Virus record (IMG/VR): IMGVR_UViG_3300025769_000055
Span: 1-31,889 of that record
Reading direction: 5' to 3' (one strand)
Length of the DNA stretch: 31,889 nucleotides
DNA from: a virus
Within the stretch, counting starts at the first letter, position 1. Every line of letters begins with the position of its first letter. The notes beneath the pieces were generated by a model. It saw nothing but the letters and a program-made list of their open reading frames with translations. It was not told the DNA's origin and did no database searches. The position numbers and the translations under genes are program-made. Below are positions 1,378-31,057 of the stretch, in pieces.

Positions 1378-1684
1378 ATTAATCTTATCAATTAAGACTA
1401 GAAATAAGTCATTTAATTTGCTAGAAAAGGTGTATAAAGATTTTGGGGTGGTATTCCATCCCAATTCTACTGTTGTTTCAGTAGAGAACTTTATAAAGGA
1501 GAAAGCTAATGGAAAAAGCACTTCCGAAGCTTCAAGCCAAGTACGACAAGGCAATAGTGAGAGAAAAGGACTTGTTGGAAAAGCTAAAGAAGATAAGGAA
1601 CAACAAAAAGTCATTAGCTTGGAAGATACATCAGACAAAGTATCATCCAGCTATGATCTAAAGAGAGAGGACAAACAGTTATGA
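1370..1684 (+). CDS. hypothetical early protein, 104 aa, overlapped by a second frame
   Basis: The start follows AAGGAGAGAATAA and overlaps the previous gene by eight bases. Residues 1-46 look like an ordinary folded protein (LILSIKTRN, VYKDFGVVFHP). Residues 47-104 are low-complexity, rich in Ser, Gln, Glu and Lys, as often seen when a frame runs through a second gene. A good alternative gene in another frame begins at 1509 inside it. Its stop (TGA 1682-1684) overlaps the next ATG at 1681 as ATGA, which supports translation to the end. Function unknown. Confidence 0.6.
   Translation: MPKLILSIKTRNKSFNLLEKVYKDFGVVFHPNSTVVSVENFIKEKANGKSTSEASSQVRQGNSERKGLVGKAKEDKEQQKVISLEDTSDKVSSSYDLKREDKQL
1443..1464 (+). 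other. 9-bp RNA hairpin inside early gene
   Basis: TTGGGGTGG pairs with CCATCCCAA (one G-U pair) around a four-base TATT loop. This is a strong hairpin for such AT-rich DNA. It has no following T-run, so it looks more like a processing or translational control element than an intrinsic terminator. It lies 45 bases before the nested start at 1509. It could also be a by-product of the coded Gly-Val-Val-Phe-His-Pro stretch. Confidence 0.45.
1509..1661 (+). CDS. nested small coiled-coil protein, 50 aa (alternative frame)
   Basis: This frame is embedded in the 1370-1684 gene. It starts with an ATG eight bases after AAAGGAG (AAAGGAGAAAGCTA), the same ribosome-site design used by the other early genes. 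The 50-residue product starts MEKALPKLQAKYDKAIV and has regularly spaced Leu, Ile and Val between Lys, Arg and Glu, typical of a helical coiled coil, with a Trp near the end. Either this frame or the outer one may be the main product, or both may be made. Function unknown. Confidence 0.5.
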   Translation: MEKALPKLQAKYDKAIVREKDLLEKLKKIRNNKKSLAWKIHQTKYHPAMI

Positions 1685-1959
1685 AAAAAATGTACTTAAT
1701 GACAATGATCGTATGCACTCTTTTAAATGGATGTGCCAAATACGACCCAATCATAGACACAAAAGGAAAATCAAAGTTTGAAACATCAAATGCAAGTGAG
1801 ATTTCAAATGATAAAATTTTGTGTGAGAAACTTGCAAAAAATAATACGACATTTTTTGGTAATATAAATTTTTGGATATTGTCTCCTAAAGCTGAGACTC
1901 AATATACTGATATTTATAGAAAATGCCTTTTAGGTCGTAATCATCAGGTGTTGAACTAA
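1681..1959 (+). CDS. phage-encoded lipoprotein, 92 aa
   Basis: The N-terminus is a lipoprotein signal: MKKM, a hydrophobic core (YLMTMIVCTLL), then LNGC with Cys18 as the lipidation site. The mature part begins AKYDPIIDTKG and ends YRKCLLGRNHQVLN, with Cys48 and Cys83 that could pair. This layout is like small outer-membrane lipoproteins of SAR11-type bacteria, so the gene may have been taken from a host. Possible roles are superinfection exclusion or an envelope function in lysis; neither is shown. It starts at an ATGA junction with the previous gene and its TAA overlaps the next start (TAATG). Confidence 0.8.
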   Translation: MKKMYLMTMIVCTLLNGCAKYDPIIDTKGKSKFETSNASEISNDKILCEKLAKNNTTFFGNINFWILSPKAETQYTDIYRKCLLGRNHQVLN

Positions 1960-3486: not shown

Positions 3487-3905
3487 TGTACCAACAACAA
3501 CAAAAAACACCTTTTTGTGCTTTAACAATGTATCTCAGACCCACAGGAAATAAATCTCCTAAGTTTGAATACAAAGCTGATGCCAAAAGTTTATTTACTT
3601 GTAGCTTAACAAAGAAAAAATATAAGCTATCGCAAATAGACGAGTGGTATCATACAGAGGGAGTACAAAACTTTGTAAGACAAGGTTATACAGGAAAATG
3701 GTATGCTAAGACTCAGGACATTGAGACACCTAATAAATACGATCAAGGTACGACTCAAATGGTTTTAAGTTTTATTATGACTAAGCCTTATAAACCTCAA
3801 CCTAATGTGGATGGTATGAAACCTATCGCACAAGCAATTCCACAGCCAATGCAACAAGTCGCAAAAGCTGAAGAATCTTTTGATGATGATTTACCACCAT
3901 TTTAA
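3486..3905 (+). CDS. putative single-stranded DNA-binding protein (SSB-like acidic tail)
   Basis: The protein ends SFDDDLPPF, very close to the DDDIPF tip by which bacterial SSB recruits its partners. As in SSB, a folded N-terminal part (residues 1-105, rich in aromatic residues, with KWYAKTQ and TQMVLSFIMT strands) is followed by a Pro/Gln linker (about 106-128) and the acidic tip. It lies directly after a recombination nuclease and a small unknown gene. I cannot confirm an OB fold by eye, so it may be an unrelated protein that uses the same tip. The start follows AAAGGAGACAAC in a TAATG junction. Confidence 0.6.
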   Translation: MYQQQQKTPFCALTMYLRPTGNKSPKFEYKADAKSLFTCSLTKKKYKLSQIDEWYHTEGVQNFVRQGYTGKWYAKTQDIETPNKYDQGTTQMVLSFIMTKPYKPQPNVDGMKPIAQAIPQPMQQVAKAEESFDDDLPPF

Positions 3906-4002
3906 TAAACTAAAAGAAAAGCTAAGTGTGTGGTCACTATATAACCGAGAATATATAGTTGGCTTCATACTTGGTTTTATTATAGGAGCAATATTGTTAT
4001 GA
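3883..4002 (+). CDS. small single-span membrane protein, 39 aa
   Basis: This frame overlaps the end of the SSB-like gene by 23 bases and joins the next gene by ATGA at 3999. The first 22 residues are basic and polar (MMIYHHFNKLKEKL, then SLYNRE) and the rest is one membrane helix with small-residue spacing (YIVGFILGFIIGAILL). No strong ribosome site precedes it. The coupling at the 3' end and the clean transmembrane pattern support it as a real membrane microprotein of unknown role. Confidence 0.55.
   Translation: MMIYHHFNKLKEKLSVWSLYNREYIVGFILGFIIGAILL
3936..3959. other. 8-bp perfect inverted repeat
   Basis: ACTATATA and TATATAGT are perfect inverted copies around an eight-base loop (ACCGAGAA). 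The hairpin is 31 bases after the SSB-like gene and 40 before the gene at 3999. It lies within the 39-residue membrane frame. It could be an operator, a message-processing hairpin or chance in AT-rich DNA. Confidence 0.4.
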
Positions 4003-7272: not shown

Positions 7273-7545
7273 ATGGCAAAATATAAAGGTAGAACTGTAA
7301 AATTAAATAAACCCTCTCGTGGAGATGTAAAAAAATTCAAAGTATTTGTAAGAGATAATAAGTCAGGTAGAGTCAAAAAGATTAATTTTGGTTCAAAGAC
7401 AATGAGTATAAAAAAGAATATACCAGCTAGGCAGAGAAGTTTCTTTGCGAGATTCCGACCCATCTTGGCTAATGTAAAAGGACAGAAAAGTTTATCTCCT
7501 GTATATTGGGCTATGAGAAGCTGGAGAAAAGGATTTAAGATATGA
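7273..7545 (+). CDS. conserved basic phage protein, 90 aa
   Basis: The chain is strongly basic. The pattern MSIKKNIPARQRSFFARF, then a Lys/Ser-rich stretch, then PVYWAMRSWRKG matches a widespread phage family whose members read MxIKxxxPARRKSFRARH and end in a YWSCKxW motif; here the central Cys and the second Cys are replaced, so a metal-binding site, if the family has one, is missing. No function is established. Its start follows the hairpin at 7254-7271. The end overlaps the next gene by ATGA. Confidence 0.72.
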   Translation: MAKYKGRTVKLNKPSRGDVKKFKVFVRDNKSGRVKKINFGSKTMSIKKNIPARQRSFFARFRPILANVKGQKSLSPVYWAMRSWRKGFKI

Positions 7546-7916
7546 AATTAAGTGAGAACACATCTGTTGCTATGCCAATTAAAAATATGTTGGCTATTAT
7601 AGGTGGGGTTATAATTGGTGTACTAGCTTGGTCAGATTTAACTGCTAGGCTTACCTCACTCGAAACGAGTCGTGAGTTAATGAACGCAGATTTGTTAAAA
7701 GCATCTGAACAAACAACAGTAGATAAAGAACAGTTTTTATTATTAGAAGATTTATACGAAACAATAGAAAAGCACCAAGAGTTGTTAGATAAAAACATAC
7801 ACAATCAGGTAATGCTTACTCATATCGAAAAACAATTAGAAAAAGCATTAAACGATATTGAGGAATTAAAAGATTCAAATAGAGAGATGAAATATACTAA
7901 TGGGAGTTCTCACTAA
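7542..7916 (+). CDS. membrane-anchored coiled-coil protein, 124 aa
   Basis: One membrane helix (MLAIIGGVIIGVLAW, residues 15-29) follows a short polar N-terminus. Residues 33-115 are a long coiled coil with regular Leu (LTSLETSRELMNADLL, LEDLYETIEKHQELL, IEKQLEKALNDIEEL). The ordering resembles an inner-membrane spanin-like or anchoring protein, and I recognise similar small proteins in uncultured marine phages. It lies far from the endolysin, so a lysis role is only one option. The start is an ATGA junction and the stop joins the next gene by TAATG. Confidence 0.78.
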   Translation: MKLSENTSVAMPIKNMLAIIGGVIIGVLAWSDLTARLTSLETSRELMNADLLKASEQTTVDKEQFLLLEDLYETIEKHQELLDKNIHNQVMLTHIEKQLEKALNDIEELKDSNREMKYTNGSSH

Positions 7917-11143: not shown

Positions 11144-13228
11144 ATGTCAGATATAGTAAAAGACTTAACAGAATACAGAATCAGAGGTATTGAAAAAGCC
11201 GAAGTTGAATTTTACGAATCACTTACAAGAACACTAGATAAAATAGAAGATGAGATAGTAGCATTAGCTGATACTAATTTACCAAGACAGGCTGGTAAGC
11301 TTATTGAACTACAAAGTGCAGTAGCAATAAGACCAAAGATAAAAGCAATACTTGATAAAGAATATTTACCATTTGCAGATAGAGTTGTTAGAAAAGGTTT
11401 TGGAGAACAAGCTAAAAGAGTTGAGAGACAATTTAAAACAATAGGATTAATACCACCTGAATTTCAAGAACTTACAAAGGGAGATTTAGCTTTAGTAAAA
11501 AATTTAAAGCAACAATATTACACACAGTTTAAAGATGTATCAAACAATTTTACAAGAATACTATCAGATAAAGTATATCAAAACACATTAGTTGGAACTG
11601 AATTTACAGTATTAGAAAAAGAATTAAGAGAATCTATTAATGGTATTTATGCAAGTTCAAGAGACCCAGCAGTAAATAGATTAGTAAGTTATGTAAAAAG
11701 AAACAGAGATAATCCAAGATTAAAAGGTAGAGTAGATTCAGCTATTAAACAATTACAAAGTAAATATGCAAGAACTAGAACAGGCGAGAATATGAAAAGA
11801 TATGCTGGTCAAATACTTAATGATTCTTTACGAGACTTTGATGCTACATTAAACTTTAATAAATCAAAAGATGCTGGACTTACATTTGTTAAATATTATG
11901 GAGATGTAATACCTACAACAAGAGATTTATGTAGAAGAATGGTAGGTGGACAGCTTAACAAAAGAAAGAATGGTTTATTTACCATAGCAGAGATACAAGA
12001 CATTTGGGCTAGTAGAAGTTGGTCAGGTAAAAAGGGTGGTAATCCAATGGTAGTCAGAGGTGGATATAATTGCAGACATCAGTTTAGTTATGTAAATCCT
12101 GATTGGTATGAAGATGATGGAGAAGATTCATCTACACTTTTAAAAGATTCTAAACAAGATACAAAACCAACAACTTCAATATTTGGAGATATATCAGATG
12201 AAGAAAGAAAATATTTACCATTAGCATTTGGTACAGTTGCAACAAACTTTACTAGAACTATTAGTAAAATACCTAAATCTCCTAAGATGCCACAGTTAAG
12301 AGGAGATAATGCTTTTTATAGACCTACAACAGACGAAATAAATTTAAGTGATTTTAATATAGAAAATAATTTAAGAGCAAGACGAATATATGCACATGAA
12401 TTTGGACATAAGATTGATCACAATATTGGAAACATAATGTTAGAAAAAAAAGATATAGCAAAAAAAATTATACCAAATTCTGATAGGGTAGTTTATTCAA
12501 CAACATCTTTTAGAAAAACATTATTTGACGATGTTGTAGATGAAAGAAAAGGTAAGTATTCAGTTCAATTAAGTAATTCTGCACAAATAGAAATGATGGC
12601 AGATAGAGTTAATTTAAAAGATAATATCAAGGTAGGCTTAACAAGTTATACAGATGACTTAAACTCTTTAGCAATAAAAATACAAGGTAAAACATTTGAT
12701 GAAAGATTAGCAATTAGAACAAAATATCTTGACGATATTATAAAAGAAAAATCATTTCCATTAGATAAAAACGAAATAAGAATATTATTAAGAGAAAAAG
12801 GTATTACTTATGACCCAATGAAAACAGAAACAATAGATTTTGTGACTTCAATAAAACACAAATTAGTTTTTTCAAGATATGGAAAATCTTTAAAATTAAA
12901 GTTAAAAAATGGAGAGTCATTTACAGCTTCTACTAGAGATGCTGGTAAATATTTTGACCCAATGTTTGCAGATTATGTTGGAGCAATAACAAACAACGCA
13001 ATCGGTTTTGGACATAAGCTAGGATATTATGAAAAATTTTTTGCTACTGAAACAATTAAAAAAGGTTATGGAAAAATTACTTATGGTCATAGTACAGAAG
13101 CTTTTGCTAACTTTACTGCATTATCAAACACAGACAATAAAGAAATTTACATAAAACTTATGAACTATTATGCACCACAAACAACAAGAACATTTGGCGA
13201 ATTATATGAAAGGAGTAATTTATTATAA
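11144..13228 (+). CDS. MuF-type head morphogenesis protein with C-terminal zincin-like domain, 694 aa
   Basis: Residues 1-330 form the helical MuF region ending in its signature: YYGDVIPTTRDLCRRMVGG (251-269) and RGGYNCRHQF (305-314). After a linker (330-385), residues 386-694 form a second domain with a strand (AFYRPTTDEINLS), the metal motif HEFGH (His418, Glu419, His422) and a downstream STEAFANF helix (Glu652) as candidate third ligand. This is a zincin metalloprotease layout. MuF proteins enter the head, so the domain may be injected into the host as a polymorphic-toxin-like effector, or may be the capsid maturation protease, since none is otherwise seen. The TAA overlaps the next ATG. 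Confidence 0.8.
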   Translation: MSDIVKDLTEYRIRGIEKAEVEFYESLTRTLDKIEDEIVALADTNLPRQAGKLIELQSAVAIRPKIKAILDKEYLPFADRVVRKGFGEQAKRVERQFKTIGLIPPEFQELTKGDLALVKNLKQQYYTQFKDVSNNFTRILSDKVYQNTLVGTEFTVLEKELRESINGIYASSRDPAVNRLVSYVKRNRDNPRLKGRVDSAIKQLQSKYARTRTGENMKRYAGQILNDSLRDFDATLNFNKSKDAGLTFVKYYGDVIPTTRDLCRRMVGGQLNKRKNGLFTIAEIQDIWASRSWSGKKGGNPMVVRGGYNCRHQFSYVNPDWYEDDGEDSSTLLKDSKQDTKPTTSIFGDISDEERKYLPLAFGTVATNFTRTISKIPKSPKMPQLRGDNAFYRPTTDEINLSDFNIENNLRARRIYAHEFGHKIDHNIGNIMLEKKDIAKKIIPNSDRVVYSTTSFRKTLFDDVVDERKGKYSVQLSNSAQIEMMADRVNLKDNIKVGLTSYTDDLNSLAIKIQGKTFDERLAIRTKYLDDIIKEKSFPLDKNEIRILLREKGITYDPMKTETIDFVTSIKHKLVFSRYGKSLKLKLKNGESFTASTRDAGKYFDPMFADYVGAITNNAIGFGHKLGYYEKFFATETIKKGYGKITYGHSTEAFANFTALSNTDNKEIYIKLMNYYAPQTTRTFGELYERSNLL

Positions 13229-24514: not shown

Positions 24515-26263
24515 ATGGCACAAGTTAGCGATTTCGTCTTAGATAATCAAGGTTTCAGTTCTTTTCGTACTGAACTTAATAATATTTTATCAGCACAAAA
24601 TTCAAACAACTCAGGTACTTCAAGACCATCTTCAGCAACCACAGGCACAATTTGGTTAGATACAACTAACTCAGGCTCAAATAGTTTAACACTTAAATTT
24701 TTTGATGGGAGTGATGACATAAGTTTAGCAACAATAGACACATCAGCAAATACAGTTAATTGGTTAGATAGTACAGTTTCAGCAGATTTAGTGAATGATA
24801 CAACTCCACAATTAGGTGGAAATTTAGATACTAACTCGCACAATATAGCTTTTGATGATGCACATGGAATTATTGACGAAAATGGAAACGAACAAATAAC
24901 ATTTCAAACAACATCATCAGCAGTTAATCAAATTGATGTCACAAACTCTGCCACAGGAAACGCACCTGAAATATCGGCAACAGGTGGAGACACAAACATA
25001 GATTTAAAATTAACACCTAAAGGTTCAGGTAAATTAAATTTAGATGGTATTAAATTTCCAAATGCAGATGGATCAGCAGATCAAGTATTAAAAACTGATG
25101 GTTCAGGAAACTTATCTTTTGCAAATGCTTCTGGTGGTGGAGTAAGTTGGCAATCAGTAAAAACTGCTAGTTTTACAGCAGTAGCTGGTGAGGGATATTT
25201 TGTAAATACTACAAGTGGTGCTATTACTATGACATTACCATCTTCGCCAAGTTTAGGTGACACAGTAATTGTTACAGATTACACGAGAACTTTTCAAACA
25301 AATAAATTAACAATAAATACTAATTCTTCAAAATTTCAAAGTCTTACCACTTCCACAGTTGATTATGAAATTGAGGGTTTAACTCTTGAATTAGTTTATT
25401 CAGATGCAAACGAGGGTTGGATTCCTACTCTTGATGACGATTCGGTAAGTAAAGATACTTATGGACTTGAATATTTAATAGTAGCTGGTGGTGGAAGTGG
25501 AAGTAGAAATAAAGGTGCTGGTGGTGGTGCTGGTGGACTTTTAACAAATTATGATGGCACTCCTTTACAAGTAACTGCTGGAATTACTTTGACTTGTACT
25601 GTTGGTGCTGGTGGCTCTGGTGGAACTTCAGCCTCAGGAAATGATGGAACTGACAGCACAGTTTCTGGAACAGGCTTTACAACTTTAACTGCTATTAAAG
25701 GTGGTGCTGGAAATTCTGGCGGTGGTGCTGGACTAGGAAATGATGGTGGTTCTGGGGGTGGAACAGGCGGTGAGGGAAACGGCGGTGCTGGTGGCTCAGG
25801 AACTTCTGGTCAAGGAAATGATGGTGGCTCAGGACAAGGGGGTGCTGTAGCTTGTGGCGGTGGCGGTGGCGGTGCTGGAAATGCTGGTGTCAATGGCTCA
25901 GGAAATGCTGGTGGAAATGGTGGAAATGGTGCGTCTAATGAAATTACAGCATCGTCAGTAGTGTATGCTGGTGGTGGTGGAGGAGTAACAGAAAGTAACT
26001 CTCCAACTCAAGGTTCAGGTGGAAATGGTGGTGGAGGTGGTGCTAGTAAAAGTTCTGATGCTGGTGATGGCTCTGCAAATCTTGGTGCTGGTGGTGGTTC
26101 TTCTCATAGTGCTGGAAATTCTGGGGATGGTGGAAGTGGAGTTATTATTTTAAGAATGCTTACTGCAAATTATTCTGGCACAGTAACAGGCTCACCTACT
26201 GTGACTACATCTGGTTCAGAAACAATAGTTAAATTTACAGGCGATGGAACAATAGTTACATAG
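24515..26263 (+). CDS. tail fibre with glycine-rich adhesin domain, 582 aa
   Basis: Residues 1-320 are a fibre shaft and connector region with QVLKTDGSGNLSF (190-202), a phrase frequent in phage fibres, and a TTSGAITMTLPSSPSLGD module. From EYLIVAGGG (319-327) to about residue 545 the chain is a Gly-rich domain with strings of Gly-Gly-Ala, Gly-Asn and Gly-Ser, as in adhesins with bundles of polyglycine-II helices (for example gp38 of T2-type phages). It ends with GSGVIILRMLTANYSGT, a beta cap. It probably recognises the host surface. Base composition in the Gly block is richer in G than its neighbours. Confidence 0.85.
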   Translation: MAQVSDFVLDNQGFSSFRTELNNILSAQNSNNSGTSRPSSATTGTIWLDTTNSGSNSLTLKFFDGSDDISLATIDTSANTVNWLDSTVSADLVNDTTPQLGGNLDTNSHNIAFDDAHGIIDENGNEQITFQTTSSAVNQIDVTNSATGNAPEISATGGDTNIDLKLTPKGSGKLNLDGIKFPNADGSADQVLKTDGSGNLSFANASGGGVSWQSVKTASFTAVAGEGYFVNTTSGAITMTLPSSPSLGDTVIVTDYTRTFQTNKLTINTNSSKFQSLTTSTVDYEIEGLTLELVYSDANEGWIPTLDDDSVSKDTYGLEYLIVAGGGSGSRNKGAGGGAGGLLTNYDGTPLQVTAGITLTCTVGAGGSGGTSASGNDGTDSTVSGTGFTTLTAIKGGAGNSGGGAGLGNDGGSGGGTGGEGNGGAGGSGTSGQGNDGGSGQGGAVACGGGGGGAGNAGVNGSGNAGGNGGNGASNEITASSVVYAGGGGGVTESNSPTQGSGGNGGGGGASKSSDAGDGSANLGAGGGSSHSAGNSGDGGSGVIILRMLTANYSGTVTGSPTVTTSGSETIVKFTGDGTIVT

Positions 26264-27319: not shown

Positions 27320-27808
27320 ATGCAATTATCTAAACATTTTACATTAGGGGAAATGGAAAAATCCCAAACAGCTACAAGAAAAGGTATAACTAATAAAGCT
27401 GGGTCAGGAGAGATTAAAAACTTAACTGATTTATGCTATGAAGTATTAGAGCCTGTACGAGCAAAGTTTGATAAACCAATTATTATTACTTCAGGTTTTA
27501 GAAGCCCTGAATTATGTGAAGCAATAGGAAGTAAAGCAACATCACAACACGCAAAAGGACAAGCAGTAGATTTTGAAATAGCTGGTGTATCTAATTTGCA
27601 AGTAGCTTTATGGATTCAAAATAATTGTGATTTTGACCAATTAATTTTAGAGTTTTGGAAAGAAGAAGATAAAGACCCAAATTCAGGATGGGTTCATTGT
27701 TCTTATGTAGATGGCTCTAATAGAAAACAAGTTTTGACTTATACAGGTAAGGAATATAAAAATGGACTTCCTGATGCTAAATGGTCAGGTGGTCAATTTG
27801 CTAACTAA
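27320..27808 (+). CDS. endolysin, M15 peptidase (D-Ala-D-Ala carboxypeptidase-like), 162 aa
   Basis: The zinc site of M15 peptidases is present: SQHAKGQAVDFEI with His77 and Asp84 and WVHCSY with His126; Glu111 (LILEFW) is the probable catalytic residue. The N-terminal part (residues 1-35) is a typical beginning of this group (LSKHFTLGEMEKSQTA, then SGFRSPELC). It cuts the peptide cross-links of peptidoglycan in lysis. No signal peptide is seen, so a holin is needed; a 3TM holin-like gene is at 29863. The ribosome site is ACGAGGATA. Confidence 0.9.
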   Translation: MQLSKHFTLGEMEKSQTATRKGITNKAGSGEIKNLTDLCYEVLEPVRAKFDKPIIITSGFRSPELCEAIGSKATSQHAKGQAVDFEIAGVSNLQVALWIQNNCDFDQLILEFWKEEDKDPNSGWVHCSYVDGSNRKQVLTYTGKEYKNGLPDAKWSGGQFAN

Positions 27809-27817
27809 GGAGAAACA

Positions 27818-27913
27818 ATGCTAACAAAGAAACAAAAAAAACTACCAATGGCTTTACAAAAAGCTATTATGAAAAAACAAAAGAAAACTAAAAAAGCTAA
27901 AAGGAGAAAATAA
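27818..27913 (+). CDS. very basic microprotein, 31 aa
   Basis: The start is preceded by TAAGGAGAAACA. The product starts MLTKKQKKLPMALQKAIMK and ends in Lys and Arg; 15 of 31 residues are Lys or Arg. It is the first of six basic small proteins in a row. The KLPxALQKAI core, which I believe recurs in marine phages, suggests a real short helix with a charged tail. A DNA- or RNA-binding role is possible but not shown. Confidence 0.65.
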   Translation: MLTKKQKKLPMALQKAIMKKQKKTKKAKRRK

Positions 27914-27914
27914 T

Positions 27915-28007
27915 ATGCCTTATCATTATGGACATGGAAAAGATAAAAAAAGAAAGAATAAGCCTAAGAAATCTAAGATGATGTCTAAAAGAAGAAAAAG
28001 AAAGTAA
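27915..28007 (+). CDS. very basic microprotein, 30 aa
   Basis: It starts MPYHYGHGKDKK and 15 of 30 residues are Lys or Arg. The ribosome site is AAAGGAGAAAATAAT, placed over the stop codon of the preceding microprotein. It ends in TAATG. Two Tyr and two His lie close together at the N-terminus (YHYGH). Function unknown. Confidence 0.6.
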   Translation: MPYHYGHGKDKKRKNKPKKSKMMSKRRKRK

Positions 28008-28108
28008 TGGCTAAGAAAAGAAAAAAAGCACCAAGAGGTTATCATTATATGCCTGATGGCAAATTAATGAAAAACTCTGCACATAAAAAGAAAAAGAAAA
28101 AACGATGA
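28007..28108 (+). CDS. very basic microprotein, 33 aa
   Basis: It starts MAKKRKKAPRGYHYMPDGKL and ends in six Lys and an Arg; 15 of 33 residues are Lys or Arg. It shares the YHY/MPxG pattern with the preceding microprotein, so the two may be distant copies. It is coupled on both sides (TAATG at the start and ATGA at the end). Function unknown. Confidence 0.6.
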   Translation: MAKKRKKAPRGYHYMPDGKLMKNSAHKKKKKKR

Positions 28109-28218
28109 GTGGATTTACTACAACATCTACATTGGCTGAGATGATAAACAAAAGACCAATGAGGAAAAGAAGAAGAAATGTCAAAAAAAAGAAAAAGAAG
28201 AAAAGTACCAAAAGATAA
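28105..28218 (+). CDS. very basic microprotein, 37 aa
   Basis: The first 15 residues are a polar, weakly hydrophobic segment (MSGFTTTSTLAEMIN), followed by an almost pure Lys/Arg tail; 16 of 37 residues are basic. It starts at an ATGA junction and overlaps the next gene by 41 bases. Function unknown. The bipartite form suggests a docking segment plus a nucleic-acid or polyanion-binding tail. Confidence 0.55.
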   Translation: MSGFTTTSTLAEMINKRPMRKRRRNVKKKKKKKSTKR

Positions 28219-28363
28219 AGATAGTGGTTTGCCTAAAAAATATCTTTCAGGTTTGAAAGGTAGTAAAAGATCAGCTAGAGCAAGTCTTATTAAGTCAGTT
28301 TCTTCTATCTATAAATCAGGTGGTTTTATACCTAGAGGATTACTTAAAAGGAGATCAAGATAA
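28178..28363 (+). CDS. basic conserved phage protein, 61 aa
   Basis: A basic N-terminus (SKKRKRRKVPKDKDSG) is followed by LPKKYLSGLKGSKRSARASL and IYKSGGFIPRGLL, a pattern that I know from marine phages and large DNA viruses in the form YLxGLxxxxR, then YKxGxxxPR. The family has no established role. It starts after AGAAGAAAT and joins the next gene by TAATG. Confidence 0.68.
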   Translation: MSKKRKRRKVPKDKDSGLPKKYLSGLKGSKRSARASLIKSVSSIYKSGGFIPRGLLKRRSR

Positions 28364-28629
28364 TGGCTAAAAAATATAGAAAACCTTTATCTAGTTCAGT
28401 AGTTAAAACATTAAAAGCAAAAGCAAAAAAATCTAAATTATTTACCTATTCTGATTTAAAAGCTTCATTTAATAGAGGAAAAGGTGCTTTTCTTTCCTCA
28501 GGCTCTCGTAGAGGAATGACGATGAATAGCTGGGCATTTGCTAGGGTCAATAAATTAATTCGTAGAGGTAGGTCTAGCACTTATGATAAAGATTTGGTAA
28601 GACGAGCAATAAAAAGAAAAAGAAAATAA
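28363..28629 (+). CDS. basic conserved phage protein, 88 aa
   Basis: KKYRKPLSSSVVKTLKAKAK, then SDLKASFNRGKGAFLSSGSR, then MNSWAFARVNKLI resembles a family found in many marine phages whose members read LKxVYRRGxGAFLSSGSRPG and W-A-x-x-R-V-N. The chain is basic throughout. It is found beside the previous gene in several marine genomes that I recall. A structural or DNA-linked role is possible. Confidence 0.72.
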   Translation: MAKKYRKPLSSSVVKTLKAKAKKSKLFTYSDLKASFNRGKGAFLSSGSRRGMTMNSWAFARVNKLIRRGRSSTYDKDLVRRAIKRKRK

Positions 28630-28630
28630 A

Positions 28631-28816
28631 ATGAAAACTAATAAAGAAAAATTTGTAGAGATAGATGGAAGAATCAAATTAGTAAATCAAAAGATTGATT
28701 TGATAATTAAAAACCATCTTCATCACATGAAAAAAGACATTGATAGAATTTTATATTCTCTTGGTGCAATCGGTTTATTGGTTTTAGGTCAATTACTTTA
28801 CTTACTCACGAAATAG
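28631..28816 (+). CDS. small membrane protein, 61 aa (holin candidate)
   Basis: The first 37 residues form a charged helix (FVEIDGRIKLVNQKIDLIIKN), and the C-terminus is one membrane helix (ILYSLGAIGLLVLGQLLYLLTK, starting near residue 40). N-terminal cytoplasmic coiled helix plus C-terminal anchor is also the form of small phage membrane proteins that are not holins. The place between endolysin and 3TM holin-like genes makes it a lysis accessory candidate. Confidence 0.7.
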   Translation: MKTNKEKFVEIDGRIKLVNQKIDLIIKNHLHHMKKDIDRILYSLGAIGLLVLGQLLYLLTK

Positions 28817-30558: not shown

Positions 30559-30900
30559 TTAGCCATCTTGTTTTCCAGCAAGTGTTAAATCTCTTTTTAC
30601 TTCTGTTTGTCTAACAGACAAGTATCTATCAAGATTGTTATACATAAGCTTTGCTTTTATTAATTGGCTTTCAGCATACGCATAACTTTCAACTATTTTT
30701 TTATATTCAGGGTCAGTTCTAGCTTTATGTTCAGCTTCAATAACTGTTTTAGTATCAATTTTATATTTTAAAAATAATTTACTAAACATAGCTTTTCTTG
30801 ATTCATCAAGCACAATAGATTTTTCAGCCCACTCTGACCAATCATTAGAAGCTTCTGTCATTTTTTTATAAGCTTCTTTACTATTTAAGTTCATTGTCAT
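30559..30900 (-). CDS. helical protein, 113 aa, last gene of the minus-strand operon
   Basis: Charged, helical throughout (KEAYKKMTEASNDWSEWAEKS, then EAEHKARTDPEYKKIVESYAYAESQLIKAKLMYNNLDRYLSVRQTE). The AEHKARTDPEY and WxxxR-type ending are like a family found near recombination genes in siphophages, so a recombination accessory role is plausible. Its ribosome site is AAAAAGGAAATAA. It overlaps the end of the lipoprotein frame upstream by 20 bases. Confidence 0.75.
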   Translation of the reverse strand: MTMNLNSKEAYKKMTEASNDWSEWAEKSIVLDESRKAMFSKLFLKYKIDTKTVIEAEHKARTDPEYKKIVESYAYAESQLIKAKLMYNNLDRYLSVRQTEVKRDLTLAGKQDG

Positions 30901-31057
30901 TTATTTCCTTTTTAAAAACATATTTTATAGCTGTTGTTTTTGGGTCAAAATATATCCTGTCTGAACAAGACATTAACAACAAAGAAAAAAATAAAACACA
31001 AATTATAATTATATATTTGTGATATTTTCTATGTATAGATTTTCCAAATATTATCAT
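30881..31057 (-). CDS. small lipoprotein, 58 aa
   Basis: This frame begins with an ATGA overlap with the upstream minus-strand gene and ends inside the downstream one. The N-terminus (MIIFGKSIHRKYHKY) is basic, followed by the hydrophobic core IIIICVLFFSLLLMS and Cys31, a clear lipobox (LLMSC). The mature part is 28 residues, with YFDPKTTAIKYVFKK. It could be an Rz1-like outer-membrane spanin or an exclusion factor. No classical i-spanin partner is next to it. Confidence 0.65.
   Translation of the reverse strand: MIIFGKSIHRKYHKYIIIICVLFFSLLLMSCSDRIYFDPKTTAIKYVFKKEINDNELK

Follow-up and report, generated by a model that had tools for sequence, protein, structure and literature searches.

Disruptins, with phiKT gp28 as the type case, are short cationic lysis peptides of phages that lack spanins. 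Small basic virion proteins are also already known as a kind. T4 encodes the small internal proteins IPI, IPII, and IPIII, which are present in ~360-370 copies each per head and many of which are ejected with the DNA (PMC9026906). In the chlorella virus PBCV-1, basic DNA-binding virion proteins have been proposed to neutralise the packaged DNA, and the same 2012 paper states that evidence is lacking for any large share of basic proteins in the neutralisation of phage DNA (PMC3281028). Two domains that occur or have weak likeness in the virus described here, DUF5824 and DUF5754/Tlr6F, are named but have no established function. Tlr6F has been described from polinton-like viruses as well as giant viruses and phages (PMC12220804). 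We found no paper naming DUF5824 in the open-access literature searched. Domains of this type are carried by T4-like phages and by phages of Salinibacter, Roseobacter, and actinobacteria, mostly as one part of larger proteins, whereas here it is a free-standing protein of 88 aa and net charge +25 in an operon of micro-proteins.

The locus lies in a 31,889-bp virus record, the whole of which is called the window below, from a pelagiphage near HTVC026P. SAR11 are the ocean's commonest bacteria, and their phages are among the most abundant marine viruses. The closest named relatives by terminase identity are HTVC026P (91%; GenBank MN698240), HTVC202P (81%; MN698248), HTVC111P (79%; MN698245), and HTVC112P (77%; MN698246), and PHROGs identifies the terminase, portal, scaffold, and major head protein in the window. 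An earlier note, made from the letters alone, had described six consecutive very basic ORFs (A to F, 27818-28629) between an endolysin and a membrane gene. Their place, lengths (31, 30, 33, 37, 61, and 88 aa), and counts of basic residues all match, and the flanks are an M15 endolysin upstream and a protein with a hydrophobic C-terminal stretch downstream:

M15 endolysin: 27320..27808, + strand; Peptidase_M15_3 67.6 bits; PHROG 894 endolysin, E=5.9e-49
Gene A: 27818..27913, + strand; 31 aa, 15 K+R, net +15; LTKKQKKLP(M/L/I)ALQKAI and a lysine tail
Gene B: 27915..28007, + strand; 30 aa, 15 K+R, net +14; MPYH(Y/T)GxG and a lysine tail
Gene C: 28007..28108, + strand; 33 aa, 15 K+R, net +14; GYHYMPDGKLMKNSAH motif
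Gene D: 28105..28218, + strand; 37 aa, 16 K+R, net +15; SGFTTTxTLxEMINK and a K/R tail
Gene E: 28178..28363, + strand; 61 aa, 22 K+R, net +20; PKKYLSGLKGSKRSARA family
Gene F: 28363..28629, + strand; 88 aa, 28 K+R, net +25; DUF5824 domain
61-aa membrane protein: 28631..28816, + strand; coiled-coil-like N-terminus and C-terminal hydrophobic stretch
Gene H, elsewhere in the window: 7273..7545, + strand; 90 aa, net +25; PHROG 7595, E=1.6e-16

Genes A to F cover 98.7% of 27809-28630, their products have pI values of 11.0-12.0, and acidic residues are nearly absent from A to F and H (30-90 aa, net +14 to +25). Gene F belongs to Pfam DUF5824 (PF19141; 29.7-30.9 bits against a cut-off of 25, E=3.3e-7), and E matches PHROG 38321 (function unknown; E=7.3e-9). 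We found no convincing match for A, B, or D in Pfam or PHROG. H lies upstream of the terminase and is weakly like DUF5754/Tlr6F (PF19058), but at 14.8 bits it falls under the cut-off of 27.4 and is not assigned as a member. A further basic gene, G, which carries a KHMRSM motif, is absent from the window. Directly upstream of the endolysin, 26693-27289 matches cyanophage 2OG-Fe(II) oxygenase/prolyl 4-hydroxylase genes.

The region is A-rich and its lysine codons are AAA and AAG, both of which favour a chance reading of A-rich DNA over genes; we nevertheless put the probability of such a reading close to nil. In 2,000 dinucleotide-preserving shuffles, in which we counted ORFs starting with ATG that reached 28 aa and 30% K+R, there were on average 0.3 such ORFs and the longest chain was two, against six observed; a chain of three or more occurred in 0 of the 2,000. 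Selection was estimated as pooled pN/pS on codon alignments of 101 distinct regions, each running from the endolysin to F, that came from public viral contigs and isolates. The ratio was 0.16 for A and 0.24 for C (in both, pN is lowered because some loci were fetched by protein-level patterns of A or C), 0.35 for B, 0.31 for D, 0.49 for E, 0.32 for F, and 0.24 for G. Loci fetched only via E or F held 22 variants of A, with the core unchanged. All six genes of the window are well under the neutral simulations (mean pN/pS 0.62-0.78); the two shifted forward frames gave 0.76-2.56 and had stops in 61-100% of sequences, and the frames of A to F themselves remain open in relatives. Shuffles, selection (0.16-0.49), and conserved junctions together refute a chance reading, as the earlier note had maintained, and the tests of selection and of stop codons that it had proposed both came out in favour of the frames. 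A to F are real genes under purifying selection.

For these alignments, genes were sorted by their N-terminal motifs; automatic clustering had merged A to D through their lysine tails, and the single A-D family that resulted is false. Nor does the "YHY motif" said to be shared by B and C look homologous. Relatives of B have MPYHT or MPYHY and those of C a conserved GYHYMP(D/N)G(K/R)LMK(N/D)SAH, and homology between B and C by way of this motif was dropped since the motifs differ in relatives.

The good ribosome sites and the TAATG or ATGA junctions reported from the single sequence turn out to be near-invariant among relatives. In the window, A is preceded by AAGGAGAAACA, a good Shine-Dalgarno, C starts within a TAATG junction with B, the C-D junction is ATGA, E overlaps D by 41 nt, and the E-F junction is again TAATG. 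Across the relatives, the offset is -1 nt at B-G (53/54), B-C (25/25), and E-F (51/51) and -4 nt at G-D (36/36) and C-D (12/14), and the 41-nt overlap of D and E is found in 31 of 32. An SD-like motif precedes 84 of 88 copies of A and 82 of 86 copies of B; none was found before C in 25 copies, and C would depend on coupling for its translation. Such near-fixed junctions are the signature of translational coupling, and A to F are one translationally coupled operon. A programmed frameshift fusing D and E in an A-rich stretch was considered and rejected; it would need to be +1, and nothing speaks in its favour.

The families are widespread in viruses. When viral contigs were scanned with sequence patterns for A, C, and D, each pattern matched more than 119 viral stretches, and confirmed viral relatives number 159 for F and at least 548 for E. 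A non-exhaustive scan for F with two short patterns in one genome per species of 84,980 bacterial and archaeal species confirmed an F-like sequence in only six loci, five of them on contigs of less than 20 kb and five labelled MAG, which we read as viral sequence. A, B, C/G, D, E, F, and H are a virus-specific set that is reshuffled among marine phages.

The four named isolates have the same locus after the lysis enzyme but differ from the window in member genes and order: A,B,C,E,F in HTVC026P, B,D,C,E,F in HTVC202P, B,G,E,F in HTVC111P, and C with a 65-aa basic gene in HTVC112P. Several of these conserved, selected genes are missing from the GenBank records (A, B, and C of HTVC026P, B and C of HTVC202P, B of HTVC111P, and C of HTVC112P) because they are only 22-36 codons long. 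HTVC010P, of another pelagiphage family, carries several short ORFs rich in K/R close to its M15 gene (2397-2629 and 3650-3931), with no detectable relation to A to F.

The 101 regions share a conserved order, typically A-B-(C or G)-D-E-F, from which some depart. F follows E in 254 of 265 loci (counted per locus, so that the same contig may recur). Two architectures were distinguished. The first, that of the window, reads endolysin, A, B, C/G, D, E, F, membrane gene, phosphodiesterase, and DUF3310. The second, that of sister phages, reads terminase, portal, E, F, sometimes A, H, the next head gene, scaffold, and major head protein. F and H are linked in 115 loci, and in near-complete contigs of the second architecture E-F-H follow the portal in 7/7. 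Five of these seven contigs have B and/or G (D in one) after a lysozyme or M15 gene and a holin of GTA type. In a tree of 155 F proteins (88 columns; architecture labels taken from locus content and checked), supported branches force at least three changes between the architectures. E-F have therefore moved repeatedly, and neither site is obligatory.

Domains of the set also occur within larger proteins of other phages, where we scored them with profile models built here and with shuffled sequences as a control. The F-type domain scores 75 bits in HTVC008M, where it sits on a cytidylyltransferase-like protein, 66 in Melnitz, 55 in DSL-LC01, 51 and 50 in two phage sequences labelled L299 and L297, 40 in a Salinibacter phage, and 39 in the Roseobacter phage CRP-821 (best shuffle 7.5). 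The C-type motif reaches 40-55 bits in L297, L299, and two further sequences, L323 and L328 (best shuffle 4.9), and the H-type domain 76-103 bits in HTVC008M, L297, Melnitz, and HTVC106P (best shuffle 7.1). Several proteins combine them: C and F in L299, F, C, and H in L297, and F and H in Melnitz. We do not claim the E-type motif of the HTVC008M fusion, since it scored 13.3 bits and the best shuffle 11.2. The F-type domain comes directly after the portal in L299 and two genes past the portal's neighbour in DSL-LC01; in CRP-821, the ORF directly after the portal carries it ahead of Peptidase_S78 and Phage_capsid (38.8 bits with our model; 19.4 bits with Pfam DUF5824, under the cut-off of 25). 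The protein with the C motif lies downstream of the major head protein in L323, and the order in L328 is terminase, portal, a Dps-like ferritin protein, and the C-motif protein. Fusions and gene neighbourhoods thus link C, F, and H with one another and with the portal, protease, and capsid region in unrelated phages. The Dps-like ferritin protein of L328 (2035-2490) would be a second DNA-binding gene at the same head position.

AlphaFold2 predicted four helices for F (pLDDT 86, pTM 0.76) and a partly helical structure for E (pLDDT 87, pTM 0.63); A to D are expected to be largely disordered, given their K/R tails. F had no significant match among solved structures, where sigma-factor regions came out best (E 1.5), and a likeness to sigma factors was set aside as not significant. 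In a viral structure library, the hits of F were DUF5824 proteins and, at a weak level, an entry for a prohead protease. A resemblance of H to designed "Pizza" propellers in the PDB was taken as a repeat-like coincidence.

We hold it to be an even chance that A to F, with H, are late, head-associated, nucleic-acid-binding accessory proteins rather than lysis peptides. This reading draws on the charge, the late-gene neighbours, the alternation with the head module, and the fusions with head proteins. The earlier note had guessed at packaging, ribosomes, the host nucleoid, or membranes as the target; of these guesses, an association with the head and DNA is favoured by the E-F(-A)-H block after the portal and by the fusions of F, C, and H. 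The operon would be made as one coupled unit, and its neighbouring genes suggest that it is expressed late. The proteins, whose charge points to DNA binding, would then bind phage DNA during or after packaging and would be present in the virion, where F, E, and H may act as folded pieces attaching to the head or assembly core and A to D as lysine-tailed micro-proteins that coat or partly neutralise the DNA. For B, D, and G, which stay beside lysis genes in both architectures, the link to the head is weaker than for C, E, F, and H.

That same position gives some weight to lysis, in which the short cationic A to D would disrupt the outer membrane once the endolysin had done its work, much as disruptins, also short cationic peptides beside lysis genes, do. 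A to D follow the endolysin in the window, phages of the other architecture have B, G, and D after their endolysin and a GTA-type holin, and a relative of the downstream membrane gene adjoins a lysozyme gene, lying just upstream of it in other contigs. We still consider this role improbable. Unlike disruptins, part of the A-F/H set is also found in head modules, with fusions near head genes: A moves with E-F into the site between portal and scaffold, and the C motif is found within larger proteins near portal and head genes. Strong hydrophilicity (mean Eisenberg -0.66 to -0.86) moreover sets B, C, and D apart from the amphipathic peptides that typically act on membranes; in A, one stretch is moderately amphipathic (moment 0.56). 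The window also has a possible Rz-like protein of its own, a weak match (E=0.0078) of the 124-aa product of 7542-7916, which has an N-terminal hydrophobic stretch and may be an inner-membrane spanin. A relative of this protein adjoins the endolysin region of HTVC010P. Two short ORFs, 30881-31057 (-) and 1681-1959 (+), have the lipoprotein-like N-termini LMSC and LNGC, and their products are possible outer-membrane components for lysis.

Nucleic-acid binding is common among small basic proteins, and those of the set might bind the host nucleoid, RNA polymerase, or ribosomes during host takeover without being packaged, with which the sigma-factor look-alikes of F, weak and non-significant as they are, would agree. 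The neighbours are late genes for head and lysis in both architectures, however, and the fusions are with head proteins, so we think such a role unlikely. About as doubtful as lysis is a role as assembly factors, in which E, F, and H, as scaffold-, protease-, or delivery-like domains, would aid prohead or portal assembly, with the charge serving protein contacts and A to D as partners. This role would agree with the site between portal and scaffold and, in CRP-821, with an F-type domain that precedes Peptidase_S78 and Phage_capsid. Net charges of +14 to +25 on products of 30-90 aa, nearly free of acidic residues, nevertheless suit nucleic acid better than a protein partner, and the set includes near-pure lysine tails. 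The large gene between portal and scaffold in the window (11144-13228) has a weak Zn_peptidase_2 match in its C-terminal part (E=0.021) and no family in Pfam or PHROG; the name "MuF", suggested by sequence motifs, found no support in either.

Within the head-associated, DNA-binding reading, we tentatively propose a bolder version, which we think possible but less than probable: that the genome is packaged with, and partly neutralised by, protamine-like micro-proteins from a dedicated, relocating operon, a form of DNA compaction by proteins in a small tailed phage. By arithmetic, one copy each of A to F and H adds up to a net charge of +128, and ~50 such sets would be enough to counter 10% of the 63,778 phosphates in the 31,889-bp genome. 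The T4 proteins IPI, IPII, and IPIII offer a likeness in role, as small internal proteins encoded by the phage, and A to F and H are likewise small, basic, and phage-coded (31-90 aa, with B at 30 aa; +14 to +25). We detected no homology between A to F and the T4 internal head proteins, and whereas the latter share an N-terminal targeting propeptide, the N-termini of A to F have no common sequence. The PBCV-1 proteins are mostly larger, belong to a giant virus, and were seen by mass spectrometry, whereas the phage here is a small tailed one. T4-GC190, the cyanophage homologue of the DUF5824-carrying HTVC008M protein, was found in purified S-SM1 virions (PMC3037559). The S-SM1 protein itself is without the DUF5824 module, and T4-GC190 was dropped as proof of DUF5824 in a virion; for a head role it is a hint only.

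The operon, its coupling, its relocation, and families A, B, and D appear to be undescribed, within the open-access literature. Should the products be part of the virion, they would speak against the idea that the charge of phage DNA is countered essentially by cations and polyamines, and would give DUF5824 and its partner families a first testable role; if they are absent from it, they are still lysine-rich micro-proteins under selection, for which clear assays and cultured hosts exist. Upstream in the window, 24515-26263 encodes a long protein with an extremely glycine-rich C-terminal half, which is probably tail fibre-like.
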